Part shown: piece by piece, positions 1-25,732 of the stretch
Layout of the letters: every line of letters starts with the position of its first letter
How positions within the stretch are numbered: the first letter of the stretch is position 1
From: Zingiber officinale
Taxonomy: Eukaryota > Streptophyta > Magnoliopsida > Zingiberales > Zingiberaceae
Direction: 5' to 3'
Assembly: GCF_018446385.1 (NCBI RefSeq)
Contig: NC_055996.1
Coordinates: 12,697,317-12,761,316, forward strand
DNA length: 64,000 nucleotides
The notes under the pieces: generated by a model
What the model was told of the DNA's origin: nothing
Database searches by the model: none
The model's input: only the letters and a program-made list of their open reading frames with translations
Program-made: the position numbers and the translations under genes

Positions 1-770
1 CCCTTCCGGGCGCCTGGAGTGTGACATGGCCAACCAACCAGGATGCTCCACGTGGCGAAGTCGCGCAGGGGATAGAATTTGGTCCCGGGCGCCCGGACCT
101 GTTCCGGGCGCCCAGACCTCCGGGCGCCCGGATCCATCCCGAGCGCCCGGATCCATCCCGGGCGCCCGGACAGCCTTTTTCCAGCAGGTTCCTCACCAGT
201 AAACAAAGGTTAGTCCGAGAAAAATACCCTGCAAGACAGTGTTAGAATCTGATAAAACACAGTAAGTAATAATTGACAGTCTTCGGACTGTCCGAGTCTG
301 ACTTTGGATTTCCATCCGGAAACCCTAGGTCGACCCGACGCCTACTGTTCCCTCTGCGGGGAACGCGTCCTCACCTACTCCACTCAGGAGATTTACCTGT
401 TGCCAGTCGATCCTCCAGATCGACTGGACTTTTGCTCAGCACTCGATGCTTCCGGACTTTCTGCTGGACATCCGCTTCCCCGGCTAGTCCAGTCTTTCAC
501 CTGGTTCGCGACACCAGGACTTTTCACCTAGGGTTACCACCCCCTAGGACTTTTGCCTGAAGCCATCGACCTGCCAAGACTTTCCGCATAGGGTTACCAC
601 CCCCTATGACCTAGGGTTACCGCCCCCTAGGGTTTTCCCTTTGCCTAACCGCAGCTAGGACTTTCCTGAAATCCTCAAGTAGGCTTGTTAGACTAAAAAA
701 CATCTTAACTTTGAATTCTTTGCCGTTATCAAAACACGAGTTCGATCGTCGGATGCTTCCCGCACCAACA
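1..770 (-). repeat. Element A 3' LTR, truncated by window start
   Basis: Nearly identical to 15744-16460, the matching part of the other LTR of element A. It ends (plus strand) in CGCACCAACA, directly followed by the complement of a polypurine tract. It holds GC-rich palindromes of the type TCCGGGCGCCCGGA at about 85-175, with a different copy number from the other LTR, and hairpins at 403-427, 500-519, 527-548, 587-608 and 610-631. The first part of the LTR on its distal side is outside the window. Confidence 0.9.
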
Positions 771-1631
771 ATCTCCCCCTTTTTGATTATGGCAACACAA
801 ATTCGAAGTTAAGTAAACAAGCGAATAGATAGTCATTTTAAACACAGGCAAAATTTGCTAAGTATAGATGAACAAGGTAACTAAAGTAAATTTTGCCCTA
901 TATACTCCCCCTTAACTTTGGCTCCCCCTTAATTTTTGCTCCCCCTTAATTTTTAACTTGAATTTTATGTTTACATTTTTGCTACTCTCCCCCTTTGCCA
1001 TAATTCAAAAAAATGGGCAATGTATAAAGAGTTGTACATGATTAAAGTTAGCAATATTCAACAGAGTTTGGAAGTTTAAGGTCAATTGGAATTTAAGTTT
1101 TTAGGACAAGATTATTCTTTTAAGTTCAGTTGGTCCTTAAGTCCAAGCACAAGTCATGTTTATATATTAGGTATCAGAGCCATAGAGAGCAAAACATTCT
1201 TAAAAAAGAAATTGAGTATCTTTTGCCAACTGTCTAACCTTTAGCTACTTGCTGATTGTCTATAGGACAATAGCTTTTACTAGGTTAGTCAAGTTAAGTT
1301 ATTTAGGTCCAGATAGACTTGACTAGAGCTGGAGAACTTTAACTTGATTAATGTTTATTGCATATTTAACGCCCAGACTCATATTGATGCACAGATATAA
1401 GCATTCTTGAGTCCAGGCTATACCCTATGCATCTCACGCCATTCTATGTTTTTCAATCACAATCAAGGTAAACCTAGGTGTTTTGTGAGATGCTCTGGAT
1501 TAATTCTAGTGGAACATGATATCTAGGGGGATAACCTAGACTAAACCCAACTTTTGAAAGTCTAGTAAAATTGGACTTTTGAAAAACTATTTTTCCTAGA
1601 ATTTGAAAACAAAATAATAATAGTAAGATAT
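771..1631 (-). other. Element A 3' untranslated region with several polypurine tracts
   Basis: Noncoding stretch between the pol stop codon and the 3' LTR. The tract next to the LTR is the complement of AAAAAGGGGGAGAT (771-784). Further AGGGGGAG-type copies appear as CTCCCCCTT near 905, 922, 939 and 987. Repeated polypurine tracts upstream of the 3' LTR are a described hallmark of Sireviruses. No other reading frame of note was seen here. Confidence 0.7.
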
Positions 1632-4637: not shown

Positions 4638-6282
4638 TTCCTACACATGAAGTAGTTGAATTGGTTTCATTTTAATGGATTAAAGATAGCGTGATTGAAG
4701 CAGACACTATGTTTATTGTCTACTTAAATTTTCTATTCTATTGTATTAAAGATAATTTTAAAATTTAAGTTTTAAAATAATTTTGAAATTTAAGTTTTTT
4801 TTTTTAAATAATTTTGAAATTTAAGTTTTTTTTTTTAAAATAATTTTGAAATTTAAGTTTTTAAAATAATTTTGAAATTTAAGTTTTTAAAATAATTTTG
4901 AAATTTTAAAATAATTTTGAAATTTAAGTTTTTAAAATAATTTTGAAATTTAAAAATAATTTTGAAATTTAAGTCTTTAAAATAATTTTGAAATTTAAGT
5001 TTTTAAAATAATTTTGAAATTTAAGTTTTTTTTAAAATAATTTTGAAATTTAAGTTTTTTTTTTAAAATAATTTTGAAATTTAAGTTTTTAAAATAATTT
5101 TGAAATTTAAGTTTTTAAAATAATTTTGAAATTTAAGTTTTTTTTTTAAAATAATTTTGAAATTTAAGTTTTTAAAATAATTTTGAAATTTAAGTTTTTA
5201 AAATAATTTTAAAATTTAAGTTTTTTTTAAAATAATTTTGAAATTTAAGTCTTTAAAATAATTTTGAAATTTAAGTTTTTTTTTAAAATAATTTTGAAAT
5301 TTAAGTCTTTAAAATAATTTTGAAATTTAAGTCTTTAAAATAATTTTGAAATTTAAGTTTTTAAAATAATTTTGAAATTTAAGTTTTTTAAAATAATTTT
5401 CAAATTTAAGTTTTTTTTTTTTAAAATAATTTTCAGTTTGATTTTAATTACTTAGTCATCTCACCCGATCTAATTTCTCAATCAGGGAATCCTATAATTT
5501 TTTGTGAGATGAATTGAGGTTCAATTTAAGGGTTTTGTTTAGTCTTGTGTTAGATTCAGGTTTAGCTTTGGATTCAACAAGTAAGCATTCTTTGGATAAA
5601 CTTCTGGGCTATGGTGAGTCACAAGGAGCTCATTAAAGTAACCATGCCTTCGAGGTTTTCCAAATAGTCCTACCCATTAAACTTAATACTAAAACTTGGT
5701 CTAACTAGTTAGGATCCATTTAAGGGTAGCTTCGGTCAGTTCCACTTGGCCAAATGCACCAGGTCGAAGTCATATCTTCCTAGACATGCGATGCCCAAGT
5801 TTCCCTAACGTACTATCATCCAAAAACTTCACCAGTACTGTGGTTCAAGTTAAACTTATCCCGTTTTAATCTAACCTTAACTACCCTGCCGGGTAATCTA
5901 TTCTTGTTTTACCCATTCCGGGTAAATTAGGTTCAGTTACCCTGTCGGGTAGTTCAGTTGGAGGTGTCAGCTAGTTTGGACCCTCCATCTATTTTTCATT
6001 TATAATTTTGATTTGTTTAATTTTTAATTTTTAATTTAAATTTGAATTTTGAATTTGATTTTTAATTTTAAATTTTTAATTTAAATTCGAATTTTGAATT
6101 TTGAATTTGATTTTTAATTTTTAATTTTTAATTTAATTTCGAATTTTAAATTTTGAATTTGATTTTTAATTTTTAATTTAATTCCGAATTTTAAATTTTG
6201 AATTTGATTTTTGATTTTTAATTTTTAATTTTAATTTAATTTCGAATTTTGAATTTTGAATTTGATTTTTAATTTTAAAATT
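4638..6282 (-). other. Element A spacer between gag and pol
   Basis: No open frame of note. It holds a tandem repeat (4737-5440), a semi-unique part (5441-6000) and an AT-rich repeat (6001-6300). The middle part has three small hairpins with a changing loop and a TACCC/GGGTA type stem near 5884, 5920 and 5938. Sireviruses usually have gag and pol close together, so this spacer is either an expansion of a short linker or an element-specific feature. Confidence 0.6.
4737..5440. repeat. AT-rich minisatellite inside element A, unit about 25 bp
   Basis: Roughly 25-28 head-to-tail copies of a unit of the form AAATAATTTTGAAATTTAAG plus a run of 3 to 10 T. Units differ mainly in the length of the T run and in single changes (for example AAGTCTTT instead of AAGTTTTT). 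The run sits exactly between the gag and pol coding parts of element A. Assembly of copy number here may be unreliable. Confidence 0.9.
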
Positions 6283-6300
6283 TTAATTTAATTTCGAATT
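6001..6300. repeat. AT-rich imperfect repeat inside element A, unit about 60 bp
   Basis: About five copies of a unit composed of TTTAATTTTTAATTT and GAATTTTGAATTTGATT blocks. The last part overlaps the 3' end of the gag-side frame, so the final residues of that frame are encoded by repeat sequence. Confidence 0.75.
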
Positions 6301-7120
6301 TTGAATTACGATCGTTTTCATTTTAGCTTTCCCTGGATCACGGCCTCGATATGGTCTGTCGAGGAAGTATATTTGATCCTTCGGAACCCAGTATTGGCCA
6401 AGTCCAATTTGATTTATCAATTTGGACTTGGAGACCCATGCTTGGACTGATTTACTACTTTGTTTGTTTATTAAGGATAAATAAGATTTATATTTCTTTT
6501 TACTTTTATATCCTAGCCCAGTTCTATTGTAGACGGCTCTTTGTGTCCCAAGAATTAGATCCAAATTCTTGGAGCCCAGAGAGAACTTTTCTAAAGTAAT
6601 TTTTAAATCATTTAACTGATTTTTCAGATTTGAATTTTCTTTCTCAAGTTGTTGTACTTGAGTTGAATCTTCAGTTAAAGATTTTGAGTTAGTTACTCCT
6701 TTAAGAATGGTTACTTCTTTTAAAAGTGACTTAATTTTCAAATTTGACTTGGCTAATTTGTGAAGTAAATAATTGACTAAATTATTAAGCCTAGGAATAC
6801 TTACAGCGGAGTCTGGCCCTTCGAAAACGGATGCGGATCCGTGACTTTGCTCGGAGTCGGCTTCTGACTCGCTTTCAGATTCGATGATCTGGTCCCGGGC
6901 CATCAATGCGAGTAAACTCGTTTGGTCGAGTTCGTCGTCTTCGTCCTCCGAAGAAGATTCGTCCCAAGTTGCCTTTAGTGCCTTCTTTCTTCTTTGCTTT
7001 TTGACCTCCTTTTGGTTGGGACAGTTGGCCTTGATATGCCCTTTCTGGTTGCACCCGTAACATGTGACTTCGAACTTTACCTTTGAGTTTTGTTGGGCCT
7101 CCCTGGATTGGACTGCCTTC
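6283..7120 (-). CDS. gag: Element A gag, C-terminal part with zinc knuckle and coiled coil
   Basis: Continuation of gag on the far side of the element B insertion. The frame is open from the insertion site at 7120 downwards. Near 7070-7020 it encodes a canonical CCHC knuckle, CYGCNQKGHIKANC (C-X2-C-X4-H-X4-C). This is followed by an acidic Ser/Glu stretch, a predicted coiled coil (KSLLKEVTILK to LKITLEKF) and a GLGYKSKKKYK basic segment with a YWVPK motif near the end. Gag would package RNA in the virus-like particle. The N-terminal half is at 14248-15055. The frame has no ATG here because it is the downstream half of a split gene. Confidence 0.85.
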
Positions 7121-7125
7121 TTTAG
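7121..7125. repeat. Target site duplication TTTAG, left of element B
   Basis: TTTAG immediately precedes the 5' LTR of element B and is repeated at 14243-14247 right after its 3' LTR. It defines the insertion point inside gag of element A. Confidence 0.92.
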
Positions 7126-8940
7126 TGTTGGTGCAACCTTAGGTCAAGGTTGACCTGGTTGACCCGACTCGAGGTGACTTGACTCGAGTTGTATTTTGAT
7201 GTTTGACTTGGGAAGATTGTCGGTGCAACCTTAGGTCGAGGTTGACCTAGTTGAGTTACATGTTGATGTTTGACACTCGTGGAAGAGTTGTATTCTTGAT
7301 ATGGTACAAGAATAGATGTTTGGGAGATTATTGGTGCAATCGTAGGTTAAGGTTGACCTGGTTGACCTGATTCGGGAAAAAGTCCAAGTATGGAGACTTG
7401 GCAACGGAAAAGCCCAAGCAGGGAGCTTGGCACGCGAGAAGTCCAAGTGTGGAGACTTGGCACGGGAAAAGTCCAAGTATGGAGACTTGGCACTGGAAAA
7501 GTCCAAGCAGGGAGCTTGGCACAAGGGAAAGACCTAACTGGGATGTTAGGCAGGTAGAAAGTCCTGGTGAGTGAAACCAGGCAGTGGGAAAGTCCTAACT
7601 GGGATGTTAGGCAGTGTGGAAAGTCCTGGTGAGTGAAGCCAGGCAGTGGGAAAGTCCTAACTGGGATGTTAGGCAGTTGGAAAGTCCTGGTGAGTGAAGC
7701 CAGGCAGTGAGAAAGTCCTAACTGGGATGTTAGGCAGTGTGGAAATCCTGGTGAGTGAAGCCAGGTGGAAATCCTGGTGAGTGAAGCCAGGTGAAAGTCC
7801 TGGTGAGTGAAGCCAGGCAAGGGAAATCCAGATGGATCAGGGATGATCGGACATCTGGTGTAGAGAAAAGTCCAAGTGGGTCAAAGGGATTGACCGGACA
7901 CTTGGTGAAGAGTCTTAGCAGGTCAAGGGACTGACCGGATGCTAAGCATGATGTACCAACAGGTCAAGGTTGATCGGATGTTGATTTGGGAGACTTGGGA
8001 TTTGGTTTGGGCAAAAACCAAGCTCTGGATCGATCCAATGATCGTTTGTGTATCCGATCGATCCGGTGACCGATCGACAAAATGAAAGGTTCTGAGACAT
8101 CTGATCGGTCCCGAGACCGATCGGAAGAGTTGAGCAGAGACGCACCACCTCTCTGAGAGGTGGGATCGGTCCGGGAACCGATCGGGCTGATCGGTCCCCA
8201 TGACCGATCAGCAGAAGCCTGATCGGTCCACGGATCGATCAGGAGACGATCAGTACTCGCTGATCGGTCGGGACCGATCAGCATAGAGCCCGATCGGTCC
8301 CCACGACCGATCGGATCAGCCCCAGACCGATCGGGTGATGCCGATCGGTCCCCTAGCCGTTGCGACACAACGGCTAGATTCTGTGTCTTCTTCGCAGGTG
8401 CAGGTATAAGACCTCTACAGGAGACGAAGAAGATAACAACTCTCTTTCTCACGAGACTGTGATTTGAGCTTTGCTGAGCTCTCATTGTGTTGAAGCTCTG
8501 CGTGAGTTTCCTGCTGGTTTTCTAGCTGAGTTTGGATCCTAGAAGCTGCTGCTTCACCTGGTTTCCAATCGACAACAAGAGGCAAGCAAGTGTCTTTACA
8601 TTCCTGTTGTTCTTGTTTTCTTGTTCTTCGTGTACTCCTTATTGCTGTTGCAAAGATTGTGGTGAGGTTTCTCCACCCAGAAGGAGTATATATATTAGCC
8701 GGTTCTCCGGGGACTCATCCACCGACGGATTGATAGGCTTCGTCCACCTTACGGACACGCCGAGGAGTAGGAGTTTCATCTCCGAACCTCGTTACATCGA
8801 CGCGTTGAGGTTTGATCTTCTTATTTTCGTTTCTTGTTTTTATTTCCGCTGCGCTAACCCTAGTTTGTAGAAAGAAACGCGAAAGATTGGGGTCGGCTAT
8901 TCACACCCCCCCTCTCTAGTCGTACGAAGAGATCCCAACA
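7126..8940 (+). repeat. Element B 5' LTR
   Basis: Begins TGTTGGTGCAACC and ends GATCCCAACA. From 7380 to 7983 it consists of consecutive short hairpin modules. From about 8015 to 8350 it carries an array of long palindromes built on GATCGGTC/GACCGATC. The last 550 bp, with the sequence before the primer site, is almost the same in both LTRs, but the two arrays differ strongly in order and number of modules. Confidence 0.93.
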
Positions 8941-8942
8941 AG

Positions 8943-8954
8943 TGGTATCAGAGC
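8943..8954 (+). other. Element B primer binding site, tRNA-iMet type
   Basis: TGGTATCAGAGC two bases after the 5' LTR, complementary to the 3' end of initiator methionine tRNA, the usual primer for plant copia elements. Confidence 0.93.
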
Positions 8955-9001
8955 GAGGTCGCTCTTCGCCGGATTAACACCCGAGGGAGCACAAGCTAGA
9001 G

Positions 9002-10471
9002 ATGGATCAACTCGGAGAGGACATCACGATTCCACCCTTCTACAATTGCGACAACTTCGCGTTTTGGAAGGTAAGAATGAAATATTTTCTTATGACTAAT
9101 CTTGAGAATTGGAGGTGTGTGCAAGTAGGTTTCACTCCTCCGGAGGATGAAGAAGGAAAACCTCTCAAGAAGAAGAGGTGGACGAAGGAGCAAATCCACA
9201 AATCAACCATCAACGATGAGGTAACGAAAATCATTGAATTTTCTTTACCTAATGATGTTTTGTGTAGGATAGGTGGGTATAACGATGCCAAGGAGTTGTG
9301 GAATAACTTGACAAAGCTCCATGAGGAGAACTCCACTTCAAGTCATGAAGAGGAGTCAAGTGAGCCAAGGAGCTCACTTCATGAAGGAATGGATTTAGAA
9401 GTTGAGGGCCACTCAACATCTAAAGAAGAAGAGGAGGAGAGTTCTTCTTCAAGTTCGGAGCAAGAAGAAGAAGAAGCGTCTACCTCCGGAAGGGATGAAG
9501 AAGAGAGCTTTCATCCACCCTCAAACCTAGGTAACTCAAGCATTTTAATTTATAGCAAATTACACATAATGTGCTTTGAGTGTAGGGAGTATGGATATTA
9601 CAAGAGTAAATGTCCAAAGAGAGTTAGAAAGACTCCACCGGCGCCAAAGGTCAAGGAAGCCGGAGTCCCAACACGCAAGGGCAAGGAGCACGTGGTGTGC
9701 TTCCAATGCAAGCAAAGGGGACATTATCGGAGCCAATGTCCGAGAGGGAGGCAATCTCACAAGGACAAGAGATCGAGCACATGTATAGGGGGAGCTAGGG
9801 AAAACCCTAAGGTAATCTCTAAGGCACATTCTTGCAATTCTAGTAGGATGCATGCTAGTAGCCTTATTGCTATTGTCAAGAATGATAAGCATGTTAATTA
9901 TAGAAATCGATACACATGCTTAGGTGCCAAACATGTGAGCCTAGATAAGGATAACACTAGGAAAGCCAACCCTAGAATTAGCCCATCTAAGGCTAAGGAA
10001 AACCTAGGTAGGAATCCAAAATCATCTAGACATATGCCTAGGAATACCTCAAAGAAAAAAGATAAATTAAAGCTTGAGGTATTAGAGAAAGAAAATCAAG
10101 TCTTGAGGTCAAGACTTGACTCTCTAGAAAAGGCTCTTGAGGATTTGACTCTAGGGTCTAGGGGTCAAAAACCCAAGTCCAAGGACAAGAAAGGTTTGGG
10201 TCACAAACCTAAGTCCCAAATGGTCAAGCCCACTTACCACAATGTTCCATTCGATTATGGAACAAAACCTAGGGCTAGGAAGACCATTACCAAGGTTACA
10301 AGGGGAGTCACCCCTATAGTTGACCTTGACGAGACCCAAACAACCAAGGCTTCAAAGCCTAAGAGGGTCATTAGGAGGGTTGCTAGGGAAGTCATCCCTA
10401 GTGAATATTTAGTGAACCCAATGAGCTCAAATAGGTATTGGGTTCCTAGGAGCATCTTCTCTACCCCATAA
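9002..10471 (+). CDS. gag: Element B Gag protein, intact
   Basis: A 489-residue frame starting 47 bp after the primer site. It has an N-terminal UBN2-type copia Gag domain (FWKVRMKYFL, KELWNNLTKLHEE, residues about 20-112), an acidic Ser/Glu-rich linker (115-175), two zinc knuckles (about 190-204 and 233-247), a basic region, a coiled coil (LEVLEKENQVLRSRLDSLE, about 357-380) and a C-terminal tail ending RYWVPRSIFSTP. The first knuckle reads CFECREYGYYKSKC, so the zinc-binding His is Tyr; the second, CFQCKQRGHYRSQC, is canonical. The equivalent first knuckle of element C retains His. The frame is open although pol is gone, which suggests recent activity or selection on Gag. Confidence 0.9.
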   Translation: MDQLGEDITIPPFYNCDNFAFWKVRMKYFLMTNLENWRCVQVGFTPPEDEEGKPLKKKRWTKEQIHKSTINDEVTKIIEFSLPNDVLCRIGGYNDAKELWNNLTKLHEENSTSSHEEESSEPRSSLHEGMDLEVEGHSTSKEEEEESSSSSSEQEEEEASTSGRDEEESFHPPSNLGNSSILIYSKLHIMCFECREYGYYKSKCPKRVRKTPPAPKVKEAGVPTRKGKEHVVCFQCKQRGHYRSQCPRGRQSHKDKRSSTCIGGARENPKVISKAHSCNSSRMHASSLIAIVKNDKHVNYRNRYTCLGAKHVSLDKDNTRKANPRISPSKAKENLGRNPKSSRHMPRNTSKKKDKLKLEVLEKENQVLRSRLDSLEKALEDLTLGSRGQKPKSKDKKGLGHKPKSQMVKPTYHNVPFDYGTKPRARKTITKVTRGVTPIVDLDETQTTKASKPKRVIRRVAREVIPSEYLVNPMSSNRYWVPRSIFSTP

Positions 10472-12356
10472 ATGGGTTAGAGAGTGTCAACTCCAATAAG
10501 AAGGGTAGTTAACCCAACTTTGAGGAAATTGACACTCAAGGAGCATTTTCAAGGTTTTGTGAACCTTTGAAAATGAAAAGGAATTATCGTTTACTCCTTG
10601 AAGAGTAAATTGTGCCATATTTGAAAAATATCGATTTTAATCTTATTTGGCACAATTTAAGAAAACCTAGAGAAATACCATAATTGGGATTTTGGTTTTC
10701 TCTTAGGGATATATGGGCAATCTAGGGTTAGATTTTAAGTTAGCAAAGGCTAAGGATACTTAGATAGGGAATTTAGGTATTTTATTTGTGCTAACTTGCC
10801 ATGATTGGTTGCCATATGCCATGCCATGACATCATATTTAATTTATGATCATTTGAAATGTCATGATAATGCTTAGGTTATTTATATGTCATGTTTATTT
10901 AAGTTTCAAACTTTATGCCATGACATCATGACATTGGCACATGTTTTCATTTATGATATTATTTCATGACATGTCATCATCTCTTGCATTAAGAATCAAT
11001 GAAATTGATTTAAGGATAAAAACACATTTTGATATTGAGATCAAAGTGTAGTTTAGAAAATGCATGAGAACTTAGCCTAAGATGACCTTAACCCATATCT
11101 CACATCAAATTGACTTGAATGTGGTTTGATACACCTTAGATGTGTGTGAGATATTAGGATCATGAGTTAGGATCAAGGTGCATTGTTCTTGTACCTAGAT
11201 GACCCTAATTCAAGAAATTGGGGATCATAGGGAAAGCTTGTGTACAAGTCATGTACATTTAGCCCTAAGATTATGGTCCTAAATTCAAATGGTTTTAAAA
11301 GCATTTTAAAATTGATTTGAAAAACCTTGATGAAGCTTTCCTAGTGATAGCATTCATCATTGAACATTGTGATACAAAGTTGAGTTAAACTTGAACTATT
11401 TCAAAGTTTTTGAACTTTGTATCAAGATTGAAAAATGGAAGTTATTTTCATCGAAAATTATTTTTCCATGATAGTATATGTTATGAGGAATGTATCCTCA
11501 AAATTTTACGATTTTTGGAATTTTCTGAAATTTATTAGGAGTTTCTGAATTTCCGGAGAAGGGAAATCAGAAATCTCTGATTTCAGAGTATGGATCGGTC
11601 ACCGGACCGATCCAGGGAAGTCCTGATCGGTCTGGTGACCGATCAGTGACGATCCAGAAAGCGGGGATCGGTCTGGGGACCGATCCAGGGGGTTTCTGAT
11701 CGGTCCAGGGACCGATCAGTGCGTGCCAATTTCTGATTTTTCAGCTGTTGTCTGAAATTTCAGCTCGGGAAGTTGGTGCTTTGGATTTCCAAATGTTTGA
11801 AACTCTCCAAGACATTGATGGTGCAATGGTCAAGGGGGAGTTGACCTTTAGGGGGAGTTTTACCTATTAGTCAAGGGGGAGTTGACTTTTAGGGGGAGTT
11901 TTTACTCTTAAAGACTTGAGTGATATGGGATTATCACTAAGTTGATTGTTGAGTTTAGTATCAAGGGGGAAATTAAGAGTTTCAATGAAAGGTATGAGAC
12001 TTTCATTAGGAAGAAACTCTTGACCTTGATACCCTCTTTTTCCTTTTTGATGTGTGTCAAAAAGGGGAGAGTGTTCATTGGAGAAATTATTGGAGAACCC
12101 AAGTTAGGTTATCGGGTTAACCTAAGCTAGGGAAAGAATGTCAAGGAATGTTCAAGAAAAGAACATTGAAATTCTTTTTGATGTGTGTCAAAAGGGGAGA
12201 ATTATTGGAGAACCCAAGTTAGGTTATCGGGTTAACCTAAGGGGAGAATGTCCAGAGAATGTTCAAGGAAAGAACATTGGACATTGGAAGATGGTTGGAA
12301 AACCTAAGTTAGGTTATCGGGTTAACCTAACTTGATTATGGGTTTTGTCAAACATC
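10472..12356 (+). other. Element B noncoding internal region
   Basis: No convincing frame. At 11592-11719 there is a palindrome array of the same GATCGGTC family as in this element's LTRs. At 11832-11905 there are four AGGGGGAG polypurine-like tracts. At 12085-12330 a unit containing the hairpin CAAGTTAGGTTA/TTAACCTAACTTG is repeated three times with AAAGGGGAGA runs between. In A these positions would hold pol. Confidence 0.75.
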
Positions 12357-12370
12357 AAAAAGGGGGAGAT
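12357..12370 (+). other. Element B polypurine tract
   Basis: AAAAAGGGGGAGAT directly before the TGTTGG start of the 3' LTR; the site for plus-strand DNA priming. Confidence 0.9.
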
Positions 12371-14242
12371 TGTTGGTGCAACCTTAGGTCAAGGTTGACC
12401 TGGTTGACCCGACTCGAGGTGACTTGACTCGAGTTGTATTTTGATGTTTGACTTGGGAAGATTGTCGGTGCAACCTTAGGTCGAGGTTGACCTAGTTGAG
12501 TTGCATGTTGATGTTTGACACTCGTGGAAGAGTTGTATTCTTGATATGGGACAAGAATAGATGTTTGGGAGATTATTGGTGCAACCGTAGGTTAAGGTTG
12601 ACCTGGTTGACCTGATTCGGGAAAAAGTCCAAGTATGGAGACTTGGCAACGGAAAAGCCCAAGCAGGGAGCTTGGCACGCGAGAAGTCCAAGTGTGGAGA
12701 CTTGGCACGGGAAAAGTCCAAATATGGAGACTTGGCAGTGGAAAAGTCCTGGTGAGTGAAGCCAGGCAGTGGGAAAGTCCTAACTGGGATGTTAGGCAGT
12801 GTGGAAAGTCCTGGTGAGTGAAACCAGGCAGTGGGAAAGTCCTAACTGGGATGTTAGGCAGTGTGGAAAGTCCTGGTGAGTGAAGCCAGGCAGTGGGAAA
12901 GTCCTAACTGGGATGTTAGGCAGTTGGAAAGTCCTGGTGAGTGAAGCCAGGCAGTGAGAAAGTCCTAACTGGGATGTTAGGCAGTGTGGAAATCCTGGTG
13001 AGTGAAGCCAGGTGGAAATCCAGGTGAGTGAAGCCAGGTGAAAGTCCTGGTGAGTGAAGCCAGGCAAGGGAAATCCAGATGGATCAGGGATGATCGGACA
13101 TCTGGTGTAGAGAAAAGTCCAAGTGGGTCAAAGGGATTGACCGGACACTTGGTGAAGAGTCTTAGCAGGTCAAGGAACTGACCGGATGCTAAGCATGATG
13201 TACCAACAGGTCAAGGTTGATCGGATGTTGGTTTGGGAGACTTGGGACTTGGTTTGGGCAAAAACCAAGCTCTGGATCGGTCTGCAGACCGATCCAGCGA
13301 TACGTTTGTGTATCTGATCGGTCTGGTGACCGATCAGATAACAAACAGAAGGCGATCACGATTCTGTGAGCTTACTGATCGGTCTGGGGACCGATCAGCA
13401 TGGAGCCTGATCGGTCTGCAAGACCGATCAGGCGATATCCTGATCGGTCTGCCGACCGATCAGGTCCCCATGACCGATCAGCAGGAAGCCTGATCGGTCC
13501 ACGGGACCGATCAGGGTACGCACAGAGAGTTGGGCAACTCTCTGTGCTCTATTCTGATCGGTCTGGGGACCGATCAGCATAGAGCCTGATCGGTCCCCAC
13601 GACCGATCAGACCAGCCCCAGACCGATCAGGGTGATGCCTGATCGGTCCACACACTAGCCGTTGCGACACAACGGCTAGATTCTGTGTCTTCTTCGCAGG
13701 TGCAGGTATAAGACCTCTACAGGAGACGAAGAAGATAACAACTCTCTTTCTCACGAGACTGTGATTTGAGCTTTGCTGAGCTCTCATTGTGTTGAAGCTC
13801 TGCGTGAGTTTCCTGCTGGTTTTCTAGCTGAGTTTGGATCCTAGAAGCTGCTGCTTCACCTGGTTTCCAATCGACAACAAGAGGCAAGCAAGTGTCTTTA
13901 CATTCCTGTTGTTCTTGTTTTCTTGTTCTTCGTGTACTCCTTATTGCTGTTGCAAAGATTGTGGTGAGGTTTCTCCACCCAGAAGGAGTATATATATTAG
14001 CCGGTTCTCCGGGGACTCATCCACCGACGGATTGATAGGCTTCGTCCACCTTACGGACACGCCGAGGAGTAGGAGTTTCATCTCCGAACCTCGTTACATC
14101 GACGCGTTGAGGTTTGATCTTCTTATTTTCGTTTCTTGTTTTTATTTCCGCTGCGCTAACCCTAGTTTGTAGAAAGAAACGCGAAAGATTGGGGTCGGCT
14201 ATTCACACCCCCCCTCTCTAGTCGTACGAAGAGATCCCAACA
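12371..14242 (+). repeat. Element B 3' LTR
   Basis: Same start and end as the 5' LTR and near-identical ends, but 57 bp longer. The hairpin-module block (12622-13226) and the palindrome array (13273-13653) differ from the 5' LTR by exchanged or added modules. A CACTGG/AAGCAGGG module in the 5' LTR is replaced by a CCTGG/CCAGG module here, and the array here is more regular (CTGATCGGTCTGGGGACCGATCAG type). Confidence 0.93.
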
Positions 14243-15302: not shown

Positions 15303-16460
15303 TGTTGGATCGAGAAGCGCTAGAGGGGGGGTGAATAGCGCTCGTGGCTATTTCGTTCGATTATCGGAAAACTATCGGAGTTAAAGCGTGCAGTGGAATA
15401 AGCGAAAATAAAATAAAGAGACAACACAAAGAGACAGGTCGATTTTACTTCGTTCGGAGCCTAAGTCGACTCCTACTCGAAGGCCCGCGATCCTTGATCG
15501 CTTCCGGTGGGCAACAACTATAAGCTCGTTAACAGATTACAATTATGAGTACAAATAAAAGCTATCAAAAATTATACCGACGACAAGAAATGCTAATTCT
15601 GAAGCTTCGGGTCGTCGGGCACTTGTAGTAGCACTTCGGAGCGTCTTTTGGAGCAGCATGTTGATGAAAGATCACTTAGAATTCGTTGTCCTTTGAAGCT
15701 GCACCTCAACCCTCCTTTTATATGCGGTTCCGGGCGCCTGGATCCCTTCCGGGCGCCTGGAGTGTGACGTGGCCAACCAACCAGGATGCTCCACGTGGCG
15801 AAGTCGCGCAGGGGATAGAATTTGGTCCCGGGCGCCCAGACCTATTCCGGGCGCCCGGATCCATCCCGGGCGCCCGGACAGCCTTTTTCCAGCAGGTTCC
15901 TCACCTGCAAACAAAGGTTAGTCCGAGAAAAATACCCTGCAAGACAGTGTTAGAATCTGATAAAACACAGTAAGTAATAATTGACAGTCTTCGGACTGTC
16001 CGAGTCTGACTTTGGATTTCCATCTGGAAACCCTAGGTCGACCCGACGCCTACTGTTCCCTCTGCGGGGAACGCGTCCTCACCTACTCCACTCGGAAGAT
16101 TTACCTGATGCCAGCCGATCCTCCAGATCGACTCGATGCTTCCGGACTTTCTGCTGGACATCCGCTTCCCTGGCTAGTCCAGTCTTTCACCTGGTTCGCG
16201 ACACCAGGACTTTTCACCTAGGGTTACCACCCCCTAGGACTTTTGCCTGAAGCCATCGACCTGCCAAGACTTTCCGCATAGGGTTACCACCCCCTATGAC
16301 CTAGGGTTACCGCCCCCTAGGGTTTTCCCTTTGCCTAACCCTAGCTAGGACTTTCCTGAAATCCTCAAGTAGGCTTGTTAGACTAAAAAACATCTTAACT
16401 TTGAATTCTTTGCCATTATCAAAACACGAGTTCGATCGTCGGATGCTTCCCGCACCAACA
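15303..16460 (-). repeat. Element A 5' LTR, complete
   Basis: 1158 bp from TGTTGGATCGAG to CGCACCAACA (plus-strand reading). It matches 1-770 over their common part, with fewer copies of the CCGGGCGCCCGG palindrome block (15728-15885) and one shorter segment near 16110-16135 where the 3' LTR has a perfect 10-bp-stem hairpin. Confidence 0.93.
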
Positions 16461-17034
16461 ACTTATGCTTCTAAATGGGTTTAGGAACATTGCCAACATT
16501 ACAAGAACATATAGGGTCACACACAAAGGGCAATTAGATGTAGGATAGGTTCATATGATGAACCAAGAGGATTAGGTTCATATGATGAACCAAATTGGAT
16601 TAAGAGTAATCCAAATTAGACTAATTGAGTTGGACTCAATTTGATTCATGTATTGAATGAGTCTAATTTAGATTATGACTCATTGAATCAATTTAATTTA
16701 ATGGATAGAGATTCACTAAATTAAATTGACTTAAATCAAAGGTTGGATTTGATCAACCATGGGAGAATTTAAGTCAAGTTTGACTTGACTTGAGAGGGAA
16801 GATGAAGGGTCAAGTTTGACTTGACCTTGACTTGACCAAATGCCATGTCATTGTGACTTGGCATAGGGTCGGCCAATGATGATGTGCCACATCATCAAGG
16901 CAACTTCATGGTATGCCACCTCATGAGGGAAACCAAAAGTCTTGACTCTTGAGATTCCATGGAGGTTACAAACCTCATTGAAGTGGCCGACCACTTTTAG
17001 TGATGGAATGAATTGATTTTTCATTCAAGGCATC
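16461..17034. repeat. Fragment of older LTR G, left part
   Basis: Lies between the ends of elements A and F. The continuation on the far side of F (39572-39913) ends in a typical LTR terminus, CCCAACA, so I infer both pieces belong to one older LTR into which A and F inserted. The piece has two GGTTCATATGATGAACC hairpins near 16546 and 16576 and another, GATGATGTG/CACATCATC, near 16877. No coding frame. Confidence 0.5.
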
Positions 17035-18463: not shown

Positions 18464-19987
18464 TGTTAGGACCAAAAGTAGCTAGAGGGGGGGTGAATAG
18501 CTCGTCGCGTTCGCTCGGTGCGCTTCGTTGCTTGGCGTTGCTTGTTTCTTCTTGGATGTGCAGCGGAAAATACAGAAACAAACACAAACACGCTAACACT
18601 AGGATTTTACTTGGTATCCACCTCACAAGAGGTGACTAATCCAAGGATCCACACCAACGCACACACCCTCCACTATGAATAACACTCCTTTATGGTAACT
18701 ACCAAAGGCGGAGAAGCCCTACAACACTCTCAATACAAGAAGAAGAAAGGGAAATACAAGTTAAGCAAAAGCTTACAAGATGTGCAGTAAAAACCCTAAC
18801 CCTAACTTCTTCCTCTTGCAATAGATCCGCCTCTTGACTTGGAAAGCCTCCAAGAACCTTCAAGAACTGGCGATCACGTGCTTGTAGAGAGCTGTGGAGG
18901 AGCTGGAATGAATCTGAGAAGAGCTCGTCAAGAGATGCCGAAGACCACGCTCGCCTGCGGCTTTAAACGACGCAGCGGTCGGATCCCGATCGATTCGAAT
19001 GTTCCGAATCGATCGGAGGCTGGATCGATCCACGGATCGATCCGAGTTTCAGAAACCCGCTGGATCGATCCACGGATCGATCCGGCTATTCCAATCGATC
19101 CGTGGCCCACATACAGTGAGCGACCTGGATCGATCCACGGATCGATCCGAAGCTTTATTGACAAGAATCCGGATCGATCCACCGATCGATTCACGGCTGA
19201 TCGATCCACGGATCGATCCGGCGGTTTTGCCCAAACCAAGTCCCAAACCTCCTAACCAACATCCGGTCAACCTTGACTGTTGGTACATCATGCCTCGTAT
19301 CTGGTCACCCTTGACCGCCAGACTCCCACCAAGTGTCCGGTCAATCCTTTGACCCACTTGACTTTTACTCGTCGTGCCAAGTATCCGGTCACCCCATTGA
19401 CCTACTTCCCCACAGATGTCCGGTCAACCTTGACCCATCCGGACTTCCTTCCTTGCCAAGTATCCAGTCAATCCTTTGACCTACTTGGACTTCCCAACAC
19501 CGATGTCCGATCATCCTCGATCCATCCGATTTCCTTCCTTGCCAAGTATCCAACAATCCTTTGACCTACTTGGACTTCCAACACCGGATGTCCGATCATC
19601 CTTGATCCATCCGGATTTTCTTTCCTTGCCTGGCTTCACTCACCAGGACTTTCACCTAGCTTCACTCACTAGGGTTTTCCATCTACCTAGCTTCACTCAC
19701 TAGGACTTTCACCTGGCTTCACTCACCAGGATTTCCTTCTGCCTAGCTTCACTCACTAGGACTTTCACCTGGCTTCACTCACCAGGATTTCCTTCTGCCT
19801 AGCTTCACTCACTAGGACTTTCCTTCTGCCTGACATTCCAGTTAGGACTTCCCAGTCAAGTATCCAGTCAACCTTGACCTACTTGACTCTTCTTCAATCA
19901 ATATCTTATTGTCAAACATCTAAACCCTAACCAAGACTCAGCTTGGTTAACCAGGTCACCCTTGACCTGAGGGATATTGTACCAACA
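18464..19987 (-). repeat. Element C 3' LTR
   Basis: Carries a palindrome array built on GGATCGATCCACGGATCGATCC at about 18975-19220 and an array of hairpin modules at 19270-19886. The first 450 bp are virtually the same as in the other LTR, while the array regions differ by several small insertions and deletions. An AACCCTAACCCTAAC stretch near 18787 is only two telomere-like units. Confidence 0.93.
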
Positions 19988-20001
19988 ATCTCCCCCTTTT
20001 T
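19988..20001 (-). other. Element C polypurine tract
   Basis: Plus strand ATCTCCCCCTTTTT, that is AAAAAGGGGGAGAT on the element strand, next to the 3' LTR. Confidence 0.9.
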
Positions 20002-22360
20002 GATGTTTGACAATACCACAATAACACTTACAATCCCACATGTAAGTTAGGCTAATCCTATAGCCTCCTTCTTCATGCCACTAGGTAATGAACCCATAAA
20101 TTAAGCTTTTCATTCTCCCCCTAAGAGGGCAAACTCCCTCTAGGTAATGAAAACCTAACTTACTTCCTTTCATTCTCCCCCTATTGGCACACATCAACCC
20201 CCTACTAATAAAACACATCAACCCGTCTTTGGACACACATCAACCTATGCTCCAATTTTGGGCACACTTCAACAACTCCATTTGTTGAAGACTCTCCCCC
20301 TGAAGAGTTGCTCATCGTGATCACAATTTCACTCATTGTGATCAACTCAATATTGAAGGTCTCATACCCTTCATTATCCTTAACTTCTCCCTCAATGTTG
20401 ACAAATACCCAACCTTGAGCATTTTCAACCACTTGAGTTGCCACTTGAGATGATGAGGATATCCACTCCCCATTTATCCACATTTCAAGTTTAAATGCTC
20501 AACCTTGAGCAAGTTCACAACAGAAGGTTAACCACCTTCCAAGGTTCATGAAAAATAATTTTCATGTCTTTAAAGAGTCCCTCCCCCTAAAGACATGGTG
20601 GTAACTTCTGTCATTGCACCAACAATGACTTGGAATCCCTAAACCATTAGGAAAACCAATTTTAGAAGTTTTGAGGTTCAAATATTCAAAATTTGAAACA
20701 AACCTCAACCTAAACTTCAACTTAGCCTTCCTTAACCAATCCATCCTTGTTTTCACATGAAAACACCCTTTTTATGTATACAAATATATTTTATGGGTTT
20801 GGAATGGTTACCTAGACTAAAATCGGTTCAAAGATGCTGAAATCAGGCCTTCCCAGCCAAAATCAGCAACTTGGATCGATTGGAGTTGGGTTCCAATCGA
20901 TTGAACCTCTCTGAATCGATCCACTGATCAATTCAGACACCCTGGATCGATCGACTGATCGATCCAGCGAGCTTCTGCTCGCGGGAAATGCCTCCTGAAT
21001 CGATCCATGGATCGATTCAGGCACTCCAATCGATCCATGGATCGATCGGAGCTCTGATAGTTGCTGAAATTCCATTTCAGTCAACTTCAGAAACCCCTAG
21101 AAAATTCTACAAAAATCCAAAAATTATGAAATTTCGTGTAGACATTGTTTAGGGCATATATTATCAAGGAAAAATAGTTTTCTATGAAAATACATCATAT
21201 TTTCAAAGATTGACACAAACTTGAAAACTTGCAAAAACTTTAGTGTTTTCTTCAAGTTTGTGTCTAACTATTCAATGGTGATTACTATCAAAAGATAGCC
21301 TTCACCAAGGTTTTCCAAAATCATTTTGAAAACTTTTTCAAAACCAATATCCCACCATATTCCTTGGGCTTAATGCACATGACTTGTACATTAGCTTTCC
21401 CAATGATGGGAAAACACATATCTATGTGTTTTGATGAAACTAAAACTCAAAAGAATGCACTAAATCAACATCTTGAGTTTTGTTCATCATCCTAACATCT
21501 CACTTGTATCTAATGTGCACTAAAACACATACAAGTCATCTTATAGGTCTTTGTGAGATGTAGAGATTTTGGTTTTTGCCCTAATCTAGGGATCATGCAT
21601 ATCTATCTAGGCATTTTGGAGATATTAGACACCCACCTAGGATGTCACTTGTTAATAAGTGTTGTTAAATGCCTTTTGTCCTTAATTACAAGGAATTAAA
21701 CTAATGCATGATAATGTTATGGCATACATCAAAAGGAAATAATTTTCAAAAGAAAATATCCTATAACTACATGATGTATGAATGTCATGACATGGTATTT
21801 TTGTATTTTTCATAATAAGTCATGAATGCAAAAGTAGACATGATGTCATGGCATATGATGGGCAAACAATCATGGCAAGATTTAGCATAAATAAAATATA
21901 CCTAGATTAACTATCTAAGTATCCTTAAAACCTTAGCTAAACTTACAACTTAAACCTAGATTGCCCTTAAGTGCGTCAAGAAACGCCAAAACCTAAATTG
22001 GCATTTCTAATTCCCTTGATTAATTTATGCCAATTGAAATTAAGCATATTCCTCAAATGTTGGCATATTTCATTTTTCCACAAGAGTAGCACTTTAAAGT
22101 TAAGGCCCGGATTGCCTTAAATTTCCTAAGAACATACCAAAATCCCAACTTGGTAGCTCTTATGAATTTCCCAATATGTGCCTTTTAAGATTAAAATCAA
22201 ATTTTCACCACTAGGCACATTTTACTCTTTCAAGGAGTAAATAATAGTTCCATTTCATTTTCAAAGGTTAACAAAAACCTTGAAAATGCTCCTTGAGTGT
22301 CAATTTCCTCAAAGTTGGGTTAACTACCCTTCTAATTGGAGTTGACACTCTCTAACCCAT
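20002..22360 (-). other. Element C noncoding internal region
   Basis: No pol remains. Several CTCCCCCT tracts (near 20116, 20177, 20293, 20581) are the complements of polypurine tracts. At 20873-21050 there is a palindrome array (GGATCGATCGACTGATCGATCC type) matching the family motif of this element's own LTR. The stretch 21360-22360 aligns in style with 10480-11340 of element B read in the opposite direction (stock phrases such as TTGAGGAAATTGACACTCAAGG). Confidence 0.75.
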
Positions 22361-24131
22361 TTATGGGGTAGAGAAGATGCTCCTAGGAACCCAACACCTA
22401 TTGGTGCTCCTTGGATGCTCTAGGTACTCACTAGGGATAACTTCCCTAGATACCTTCCTAGTGACCTTGTTAGTGACTTTCTTAGACTTCTTAGAAGTCT
22501 TAGTCACTTTGGTTGCAAAAATACTCTTAGGGATGACTTCCCTAGTATTCTTGACTTGACCACTAAACCTAGGGTTTGTTCCATAACTATATGGAACCCT
22601 ATGATAACTAGGCACATCCTTCTTAGCCTTTGGTTTGTATCCCAAACCTCTATGGCTATTTGATGGCTTTGACTTTCCTAGCCCTAGGTTTTGCTCATTT
22701 TGCCCTTTTAGGATATTTTCCATCCTTTTTAGGGTCTTTTCCATTTTATCAAGTCTTGATCTCAAGACTTGATTTTCTATCATTAAATCCTTAGAATTTG
22801 GTTTTTCATTAAGTCCATGAGCATTTTGGTTTCTCGGCTTGTATCTAAAATCCTTAGAGTTATTGCCTAGACTTTTACCTACATTCCTAACCCTAGGAGT
22901 GATAGTCTTAGCATGTAGGGCCACATGCTTTTCCTTAAAGCCCTCATGCTTTCTATTCTTATGGTAAATTGTATTAAAATGATAAAAGTTAGACCTATCA
23001 TGCTTTTTACCATAATAAAAAGGAGTATGCTCAATAAATGTTACCTTCTTCTTTACCTTGGAGGCTCCCCCTTGACTAGTGCCTCCTTGAGCCTTGACCC
23101 TCTTCTTCCCCTTGGGGCATTGACTACGATAATGCCCCTTTTGATTGCAAGAGAAGCATATAATATGCTCCTTGCTCTTCTTTGTTGGGAATGGCCTCCT
23201 TGGGCTTCACCTTGCCCTTTTGTGCCACTTGGCCCTTCTTCTTGGCTAATTTAGGGCACTTGCTCTTGTAGTGCCCATGTTCCCTACATTCAAAGCATAT
23301 AATATGATTTTATTATTAATTGAAATATTTATACCTTTGCTTGTAGGGGTGGCATCTTTTCTTTGGATCCGGAGGTAGAAGCTTCCTCTTGATCGGACCT
23401 TGATTCTCCTCCATTTGATTTTTCTTGACTTGTGGAGGTAGAAGCTTCTTCCTCCTCTTCTTCTCTTGACCCGGATGTAGAAGCTTCTCCTTCTTCTTGA
23501 TCCGGCGTCACCAAGGATTGCTCCCCTTCAATCCTAGAGGTGGAGGCTTCATCATCTTGAATATGAAACAAGGAGTATGCTCTCTCCTTGTTCCCTTCGT
23601 TGCATTCCCTTGAGGATGAAGCTTCTTGGATTTCCTCTTCTTGGAGGTTGAGCATTTTCAACCTCGGAATCCTCCTCTTGGTCTTGCTCCAAAGAGTCAC
23701 CCTCTGGATTCTTCTTGATCTTGTACAGTGGAGGGGATCTCTTCATGAAGCTTGGCCAATTTGCTCCAAAGCTCCTTGGCATCTTCGAATTCTCCAACTT
23801 GAGCCAAGATGTGGCTAGGCAATAAGTTGACCAAAAGCTTGGTCACTTTGTCATTTGCCTCGCCCCTTTGAATTTGCTCCGAGCTCCATCTGCTTTTCTT
23901 TAGAAGCTTGCCCTTGGAGTTCGTTGGAGCTTTGAAGCCTTCCATTAGAGCAAACCATTGCTCTATCTCCATCATAAGAAAATTTTCGATTCTTGATCTC
24001 CAAGAATCGAAGCTTGCCGATGTGTATGGTGGAGCTACCCTTGTGTCAAATCCAAGTACATCTTGGAATTGCATCTTGAAGTTGAGCTTGATAAAATCTT
24101 GAACTTGAAGAAATTGCTTCAACTTCTTCAC
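22361..24131 (-). pseudogene. gag: Element C Gag, broken by frameshifts
   Basis: The N-terminal UBN2-type part is at 24131-23697 (FDSWRSRIENFLMMEIEQW, KELWSKLAKLHEE). The frame then shifts near 23700 into an acidic EEASTS-rich linker (to 23329). After a stop come two canonical zinc knuckles in other frames near 23285 (CFECREHGHYKSKC) and 23150 (CFSCNQKGHYRSQC). A last open part, 22924-22361, has a coiled coil (ENQVLRSRLDKMEKTLKRME) and ends CWVPRSIFSTP. Each block matches element B Gag in order. It is no longer translatable as one protein. Confidence 0.85.
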
Positions 24132-24193
24132 CCTCTAGCTTTTCTTGTTACGCTTGACCCTTCCGGCGATGATTCCGGTGAAGAGCAACCTCG

Positions 24194-24205
24194 CTCTGAT
24201 ACCAC
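24194..24205 (-). other. Element C primer binding site
   Basis: GCTCTGATACCA on the plus strand, the complement of TGGTATCAGAGC, two bases from the 5' LTR. Confidence 0.92.
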
Positions 24206-24207
24206 TT

Positions 24208-25732
24208 GTTAGGACCAAAAGTAGCTAGAGGGGGGGGTGAATAGCTCGTCGCGTTCGCTCGGTGCGCTTCGTTGCTTGGCGTTGCTTGTTTCTTCTTGGA
24301 TGTGCAGCGGAAAATACAGAAACAAACACAAACACGCTAACACTAGGATTTTACTTGGTATCCACCTCACAAGAGGTGACTAATCCAAGGATCCACACCA
24401 ACGCACACACCCTCCACTATGAATAACACTCCTTTATGGTAACTACCAAAGGCGGAGAAGCCCTACAACACTCTCAATACAAGAAGAAGAAAGGGAAATA
24501 CAAGTTAAGCAAAAGCTTACAAGATGTGCAGTAAAAACCCTAACCCTAACTTCTTCCTCTTGCAATAGATCCGCCTCTTGACTTGGAAAGCCTCCAAGAA
24601 CCTTCAAGAACTGGCGATCACGTGCTTGTAGAGAGTCGTGGAGGAGAATGAATCTGAGAAGAGCTCGTCAAGAGATGCCGAAGACCACGCTCGCCTGCAA
24701 CGCCAGCGGTCGGATCCCGATCGATTCGAATGTTCGAATCGATCGGAGGCTTGGATCGATCCACGGATCGATCCGAGCTTCTGATGAAGCACTGGATCGA
24801 TCCACGGATCGATCCGGCGCTATCGCGGCGACATCGTCCCGATCGATCGGTGATCGATCGGGACCTCTCGATCCACGGATCGATCCGAAGCTTCTGGGAA
24901 GAATGCGGATCGATCGCGATCGATCCACGGCTGAATCGATCCACGGATCGATCCGGCGCAATTTTGCCCAAAACCAAGTCCCAAACCTCCCTAACCAACA
25001 TCCGGTCAACCTTGACACTGTGGTACATCATGCCTCGCATCCGGTCACTCCCTTGACGTACTCGGACCAAGTGTCCGGTCAATCCTTTGACCCACTTGGA
25101 CTTTTACTCGTCGTGCCAGTATCCGGTTACTCCATTGACCTACTTGGACTCCCACGGATGTCTGGTCAACCTTGACCCATCTGGACTTCCTTCCTTGCCA
25201 AGTATCCAGTCAATCCTTTGACCTACTTGGACTTCCCAACACCAGATGTCCGATCATCCTTGATCCATCTGGATTTCCTTCCTTGCCAAGTATCCAGTCA
25301 ATCCTTTGACCTACTTGGACTTCCCAACACCAGATGTCCGATCATCCTTGATCCATCTGGATTTCCTTCCTTGCCTGGCTTCACTCACCAGGACTTTCAC
25401 CTAGCTTCACTCACTAGGGTTTTCCATCTGCCTAGCTTCACTCACTAGGACTTTCACCTGGCTTCACTCACCAGGATTTCCTTCTGCCTAGCTTCACTCA
25501 CTAGGACTTTCACCTGGCTTCACTCACCAGGATTTCCTTCTGCCTAGCTTCACTCACTAGGACTTTCCTTCTGCCTGACATTCCAGTTAGGACTTCCCAG
25601 TCAAGTATCCAGTCAACCTTGACCTACTTGACTCTTCTTCAATCAATATCTTATTGTCAAACATCTAAACCCTAACCAAGACTCAGCTTGGTTAACAAGG
25701 TCACCCTTGACCTGAGGGATATTGCACCAACA
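24208..25732 (-). repeat. Element C 5' LTR
   Basis: Partner of 18464-19987. The palindrome array is at about 24713-24957 and the hairpin-module array at 24995-25642. Compared with the other LTR the array has changed spacing and single-base differences, while the flanks are almost unchanged. Confidence 0.93.

Follow-up and report, generated by a model that had tools for sequence, protein, structure and literature searches.

Element B, an LTR retrotransposon within the 64,000-nucleotide window of the ginger genome analysed here, carries in its U3 an array of self-complementary modules (positions 7380-7983), and self-complementarity beyond chance is shown both here and in the arrays of elements C and A, which represent two further LTR families of the window. 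The two arms of the module stems change together among copies of the array, and this covariation is real and lies above the background expected from the tree of copies, resting on four base pairs. The array is best read as an elaborated version of the palindromic cis-region known from Sireviruses; this version has inverted W-box cores in families B and C, and would have stayed self-complementary in the transmitted lineages. Palindromes of Sireviruses are suspected both of driving their elements and of attracting small-RNA silencing. With its several stem words, loops that recur and compensated changes that can be measured, the present array could serve to distinguish selection acting on sequence from selection on DNA symmetry or on the structure of a single strand, and the genome supplies many copies for this purpose (the B array had 4810 first-look candidates, the best 40 of which were scored).

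Element B and the architecture of its LTR array

Judged by its sequence hallmarks, element B is a Sirevirus-type LTR retrotransposon (Table 1). These hallmarks comprise the polypurine tract (PPT) octamer AGGGGGAG, which lies 10 bp 5' of the 3' LTR and is followed by AT/TG (12361-12371), five further internal copies of this octamer, four of them at 11833-11891, the PBS (TGGTATCAGAGC), the 5' LTR/PBS junction and the C-rich integrase signal near the LTR end (CAAGTGGTATCAGAGC and CACCCCCCC), and the CGG-CCG palindromes of the LTR. The junction of element C shows the same arrangement of octamer and AT/TG, again with one terminal and five internal copies. By eye, an inverted repeat also spans the PPT/3' LTR junction of B, with GTCAAACATCAAAA before the PPT and TTTTGATGTTTGAC within the LTR.

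Element B appears to be inserted in the gag region of element A, a Sirevirus-type element on the minus strand; around B lie the zinc knuckle of the element A gag and, on either side, element A frames matching RVT_2, integrase and Retrotran_gag_2 in Pfam. Pfam gives no match for the sole frame of at least 150 aa inside B, and only a zinc knuckle for that of C; the two elements, both short, are probably non-autonomous. The internal regions measure 3.4 kb in B (8941-12370) and 4.2 kb in C (19988-24205), without a pol-like frame of at least 150 aa. For element C (about 18464-25732, minus strand), an AAATG duplication fits by eye once the LTR end is moved inward by one base from where the alignment stops.

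Table 1. Positions in the window of the hairpin modules, of the LTR features of element B, and of the sister arrays in elements C and A.
Feature	Position	Strand	Remarks
5' LTR, element B	7126..8940	+	mate LTR at 12371-14242; TTTAG target-site duplication on either flank
Five simple modules, CCAAGT/ACTTGG or CCAAGC/GCTTGG, loops RTGGAG or AGGGA	7384..7519	+	
Seven alternating modules, CCTAAC-TGGGAT-GTTAGG and CCTGG-TGAGTGAAR-CCAGG	7533..7734	+	
Three CCTGG-TGAGTGAAG-CCAGG modules	7747..7817	+	tandem period 26
Type-II M1: CCAGATG, GATCA, GGGA, TGATC, bulge GGA, CATCTGG	7828..7858	+	word nearly constant over loci
Type-II M2: CCAAGTG, GGTCAA, AGGGA, TTGACC, GGA, CACTTGG	7872..7905	+	
Type-II M3: CTTAGCA, GGTCA, AGGGAC, TGACC, GGA, TGCTAAG	7914..7946	+	
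Type-II M4: CAACA, GGTCA, AGGT, TGATC, GGA, TGTTG	7957..7983	+	
Palindromic repeated-motif block, GATCGGTC..GACCGATC boxes, CGG-CCG core	8020..8375	+	motif class as in Table 3 of PMC2829016
TATA-like box TATAAG, 3' of the palindromes	8405..8410	+	by eye
Terminal polypurine tract AGGGGGAG, then AT/TG	12361..12368	+	octamer also at 9787, 11833, 11850, 11874, 11891
3' LTR, element B	12371..14242	+	same array, modules at about 12627-13232
Module array, right LTR of element A	15960..16380	-	mate at 1-771
Module array, 5' LTR of element C	24980..25640	-	LTRs 24207-25732 and 18464-19987

The array occupies the U3 part of the 5' LTR of B, 5' of the CGG-CCG palindromes and the TATA-like box, and consists of about nineteen dyad-symmetric modules, 15 simple ones (7384-7817) and four of a type that we call type II (7828-7983). 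The usual plan is a closing CC/GG, a variable stem and a purine-rich loop, to which the four type-II modules add an inner stem and a GGA bulge. The first-pass annotation had described these four hairpins, with their coordinates, and they match the sequence letter for letter; the simpler modules that it placed 5' of them are likewise present, fifteen in number. Its statement that the loops are fixed holds to the extent that they are alike, but they do vary (AGGT, AGGA, AAGGGAT, AAGGAT, AGGGAG, ATGGAG and others). Eight distinct stem words occur in B, every one of them complementary, and the module zones of the two mate LTRs agree at 99-100% per block except in one block (83%), where the module set is altered. 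The start of the B LTR is itself present three times in the first 250 bases (about 7130, 7222 and 7333), each copy being hairpin-capable.

When non-overlapping hairpins with a perfect stem of at least 5 and a loop of 3-12 are counted against 200 dinucleotide shuffles, positions 7380-7983 yield 17 (two of them alternative registers between adjacent CCTGG modules), compared to a shuffle mean of 3.7 and a maximum of 9. The modules of element C yield 14 (4.0 in shuffles) and those of element A 8 (2.9 in shuffles, maximum 8), and no excess is seen in the R-U5 controls, with 4 against 3.8 in B and 4 against 3.4 in C. Folding energies follow the same division: with the pairing span held to at most 42 and 100 shuffles, z-scores range from -4.4 to -9.2 over the B, C and A modules (in B, -5.5/-8.1 as RNA and -8.1/-9.2 as DNA) and from -1.7 to +2.2 over the R-U5 of B and C (in B, -1.7 to -1.0). 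Global folds of 7380-7983, with 20 shuffles each, give z-scores of -5.2 (sense) and -8.1 (antisense) for RNA, and of -6.8 and -7.6 for the two strands of DNA. The DNA fold resolves most of the array into separate modules, whereas the global sense RNA fold pulls many of the simple modules into other pairs.

In the array of element A, the loop GGYGGTAA recurs, enclosed by the stems CCTAGGG/CCCTAGG and CATAGGG/CCCTATG. The LTRs of this element (15744-16461 and 1-771, minus strand) belong to a different family, also have a CCGGGCGCCCGG palindrome block, and differ between mates there too. The module zones of B and C are about 80% identical over 330 bases, but their R-U5 blocks align at only 11-54%, which suggests that LTR parts may have been exchanged between the two families.

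Arrays of this kind have a documented background. Sirevirus LTRs carry palindromic repeated motifs (RM) in high copy in the upper LTR half, upstream of the TATA box, as described by Bousios et al. (2010, PMC2829016), and the block at 8020-8375 resembles these in being made of dyad boxes upstream of a TATA-like box with, by eye, a CGG-CCG core. The modules at 7384-7983 differ from the RM boxes in lacking the CGG-CCG core, in using several stem words per LTR, in sharing purine-rich loops and, in four cases, in having an inner stem with a one-sided GGA bulge. In maize Sireviruses, the complex palindromes of the LTR regulatory region show strong predicted structure, high variability and excess small-RNA mapping (PMC10760457, PMC5311732, in the parts accessible to us); like our array, they lie in the LTR regulatory region, but those parts, which concern a different plant, do not mention stems that covary around a shared loop or bulge. 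Sirevirus palindrome clusters at this place in the LTR are already documented (PMC2829016); for modules with compensated stems and a shared bulge, we recognised no prior paper among titles and abstract openings (subscription papers being thinly covered).

Variation and covariation among copies

We collected 80 LTR loci, 40 through the B region (the best 40 mentioned above) and 40 through the C region (the best 40 of 2008 first-look candidates); these are the closest copies rather than a random sample, and clustering of loci within 13 kb reduces them to about 64 elements. A search for allelic copies, by which assembly error could be gauged, found none: among the best 40 scored matches to the B junction, the window itself was the only full-length one, and the fetched B and C LTR loci included no two different places that match over their whole length.

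To keep the location of the arms independent of their own pairing, we identified them by the inner core followed by NGA, which in 70 loci gave 433 cores, 91 of them unique, including cores from the head and the palindrome block. In the 91 unique modules, 5.96 of the 7 bases of the outer arms are paired, compared to 3.47 (maximum 3.85 of 200) when the 3' arms are shuffled. When the three bases that follow the inner stem were left free, 526 type-II modules were kept from the 80 loci (183 cores near no word were dropped), and the three bases read GGA in 432, AGA in 81 and otherwise in 13, so that the bulge is less than the invariant GGA of the first-pass annotation. At the second pair of the inner stem, the same modules have G-C in 386 cases, A-T in 125, G-T in 14 and A-C in 1. 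Simple modules with the loop TGAGTGAAR, anchored on that loop in 70 loci, have the stem CCTGG/CCAGG in 258/525 and CCTAG/CTAGG in 189/525.

Stem words are mostly conserved by position across copies, and the first, CCAGATG/CATCTGG, is near-constant, contrary to the idea that the stem of any one module can vary freely. Where they do change, one-armed intermediates are common to several elements (TCTAGCA/TGCTAGG in 9 and CCAAGTA/CACTTGG in 6 of about 64), which would argue for a stepwise change of the stems. One-armed variants common to at least two elements comprise 10 kinds with G-U, 7 with A-C and 5 with other mismatches; counted by elements and with unshared variants included, the totals are 67, 41 and 69. 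In family C, the M3 stem has a fixed mismatch, with CCTAGCA or CCTGGCA against TGCGAGG (12 and 11 elements).

Covariation was assessed on a tree built from the module zone itself, using the 68 of 80 loci that have at least three of the four type-II modules, and against a null that keeps the number of changes per column; recombination between copies is likely and qualifies any count obtained in this way. Changes in both arms on the same branch number 8, compared to a null mean of 1.82 and a maximum of 6 in 2000. Family B alone (35 loci) has 5 such changes against 0.54 (maximum 3), and family C alone (33 loci) has 1 against 0.07 (maximum 2, P 0.07), which is not significant. Thus, the proposal that the two arms change together is borne out by both the pairing and the tree, and the tree background, named beforehand as what could refute it, is exceeded, albeit with few events. 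With the outer pairs numbered outward from the inner stem, these both-arm changes are confined to pair 6 of M2, pair 6 of M3, pair 2 of M4 and inner pair 2 of M1, and all are transitions. The repeated events in M3 (4 in the 68-locus tree, 3 in the family-wise trees) may be one event spread by recombination.

Within families, shared changes fall on 112 occasions in 270 paired columns and 115 in 235 unpaired columns of B, and on 17 in 340 and 17 in 248, respectively, in C; stems are thus barely slower to change than loops and linkers, a point on which the first-pass interpretation is not supported. A neutral history could account for this near-equality, if a few ancestral hairpin units had been multiplied, exchanged by recombination and left to drift, with a mutational context shared by the two arms (methylated C) mimicking covariation, and both the restriction of compensated changes to transitions and the exchange suggested by the comparison of B and C agree with it. 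The null, however, already allows for hot sites by keeping the column change counts, and the excess persists both in the full tree and in B, where, in addition, the eight different stem words are all complementary. We therefore consider such a history very unlikely.

DNA-level and single-strand readings of the array

In the reading that we prefer, and that we regard as evenly poised between right and wrong, the array would make up the upstream half of the palindromic cis-regulatory region, a DNA dyad array under structure-keeping selection of modest strength. Such arrays would have grown through tandem duplication of a hairpin unit; changes in one arm would be tolerated for a while and then completed by a change of the partner in lineages that are still transposing. 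The array would act mostly at the DNA level, presenting host factors with a tandem series of two-fold symmetric sites, and this platform would drive or tune the adjacent promoter. The Sirevirus context, the position 5' of the CGG-CCG palindromes and the TATA-like box, the hairpin excess in the B, C and A modules and its absence from the R-U5 of B and C, the pairing of the outer arms, the both-arm changes on shared branches and the W-box enrichment given below speak for this reading, and a role at the level of DNA fits, because there is no strand preference within families and either strand folds as DNA. On the other side, dyad sites for one fixed factor would be expected to stay with one word, not to vary while remaining complementary, the stems are barely slower than the linkers, family C retains its mismatched M3, and non-standard mismatches are as common as G-U wobbles in the element totals given above.

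The inner stems GGTCAA..TTGACC of B and C form two W-box cores (WRKY sites) placed head to head. The W-box TTGACY occurs 12 times in the U3 of B, compared to 1.8 in shuffles (maximum 9), and 15 times in that of C, compared to 1.5 (maximum 4), with 0 and 1 occurrences in the R-U5 of B and C. Since the array of element A is without any W-box, WRKY binding is not the function that the three arrays share. The arrays also differ from plain inverted W-box pairs in that their outer stems are not W-boxes, and neither is the inner word GATCA/TGATC. Within the literature coverage given above, no paper was found that joins the W-box or WRKY factors to a palindromic retrotransposon LTR.

Wobble pairs bear on whether the structure is selected as RNA. 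Pooled over families, G-U-making changes outnumber A-C-making ones (146 to 86 in paired columns, compared to 89 to 92 in unpaired ones), and among shared changes on the pooled tree the ratio is 82 to 39, but within families the preference is gone (40:39 in B and 8:9 in C). We rejected G-U wobble as a sign of RNA-sense selection and, because the pooled bias vanishes within families, do not claim RNA structure; the RNA-level selection entertained by the first-pass annotation is left without a robust wobble signal. Rfam gave 0 matches at the gathering score over 7100-9000, and a search for relatives in viral contigs gave 0 matches for each of two patterns (19 and 18 bases).

These data weigh on the possibility that the modules are RNA hairpins, by which the U3 at the 3' end of the genomic RNA would offer unpaired purines (GGGA, GGA, TGGAG) to the zinc knuckle of Gag or to the strand-transfer machinery, and would so signal packaging or transfer, to the benefit of short elements that lack pol. 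The fold of the sense RNA noted above, unpaired columns that are nearly free of C (1/205 by majority base), the pairing of 90% of C in the modules of B and of C (at most 87% and 86%, respectively, in 100 shuffles), and the pooled surplus of G-U over A-C, seen also in the element totals and at inner pair 2, all agree with it, as do the zinc knuckles in the element A gag (Pfam, 20.1 bits, just under the cut-off of 20.8) and in the element C frame (22.6 bits, over that cut-off). Against this stand the loss of the G-U excess within B and C, the ordinary pairing of C in element A (73%, with a shuffle maximum of 79%), the diversion of many simple modules to other pairs in the global sense RNA fold but not in the DNA fold, and the empty Rfam search; a packaging signal in U3 would, moreover, be unusual. 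Taken together, we find RNA hairpins distinctly unlikely.

We give a small though real chance to a broader variant, in which the array would work as a structured single strand, at the end of the genomic RNA or in cDNA, whose interchangeable stems hold the purine loops and the GGA bulge in place for a protein such as Gag, complementarity being kept either by selection or by correction of hairpins during reverse transcription. If true, U3 would contain a modular array, repeated along its length, that is recognised as a single strand and is without counterpart in the Sirevirus descriptions compared here.

The modules might alternatively matter chiefly as a substrate of host small-RNA silencing, as proposed for the palindromes of maize Sireviruses, whose palindrome regions are hotspots of small-RNA mapping (PMC5311732 and PMC10760457). 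Single modules here span only about 5-14 base pairs, however, and an element subject to silencing would be selected to lose structure, which makes this highly improbable.

Differences between mate LTRs

In eight pairs of mate LTRs with matching duplications, the mates agree closely outside the palindrome block and differ strongly inside it, one pair (L009/L019) only mildly so; a ninth pair, L035/L037, was left out because its ends are misplaced. The strong difference between otherwise near-identical mates is seen in the pairs L001/L003, L002/L011, L008/L013, L030/L029, L038/L039, L020/L040 and C5/C3, the blocks compared in B being 8020-8375 and 13265-13650, and the mates of element C differ in the modules as well as in the palindrome block. 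For L002/L011, 145 substitutions fall at LTR positions 801-1300, with 1 substitution and 2 gaps elsewhere. Among the seven pairs whose palindrome blocks were tested against other elements, one mate is closer to other elements than its partner is in five, and both mates are largely private in L002/L011 and L030/L029. The ginger 'Zhangliang' assembly (3.09 Gb, 22 pseudochromosomes) is built from nanopore reads with Illumina polishing (PMC8342452), and the differences could reflect either real instability or errors of nanopore consensus or assembly.

A copying process could keep the arms complementary without any selection: a single strand of U3, exposed as strong-stop cDNA, by strand displacement or in a cruciform, would form hairpins in which mismatch repair or template switching corrects one arm from the other. 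Single-stranded DNA of either strand does fold into nearly all modules, both-arm changes do share branches, and differences between mates cluster in the adjoining palindrome block, although this hotspot may be an assembly fault. Simple foldback should, however, delete a one-sided bulge, and here arms with a three-base offset still pair, with GGA or AGA retained in 513/526 modules; one-armed variants common to up to 9 elements would, furthermore, make the correction inefficient. We thus hold copying between arms to be unlikely. A double change between the mates of element C (CCAGATG/CATCTGG in C5, CCGGATG/CATCCGG in C3) was considered as evidence for it and set aside: of the 80 loci, L047 alone has the change, one-base gaps are numerous in this copy, and the assembly seems to be based on nanopore reads.

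Three further observations concern the same elements. The two LTRs of B (7126-8940 and 12371-14242) are 92.9% identical over their whole length but show no difference in their last 515 bases, so that dating by whole-LTR divergence would overstate the age of such elements. Within the palindrome block of L002, a 161-base stretch (L002:2335-2495) is unlike the mate LTR and for the most part has counterparts elsewhere in the genome, at about 79-95% identity among the best 40 of 709 first-look candidates; filler, a template switch and misassembly are the alternatives for its origin. Finally, element A contains long AT-rich tandem arrays at 4746-5415 (period 26) and 5991-6307 (periods 7, 14, 45 and 52).
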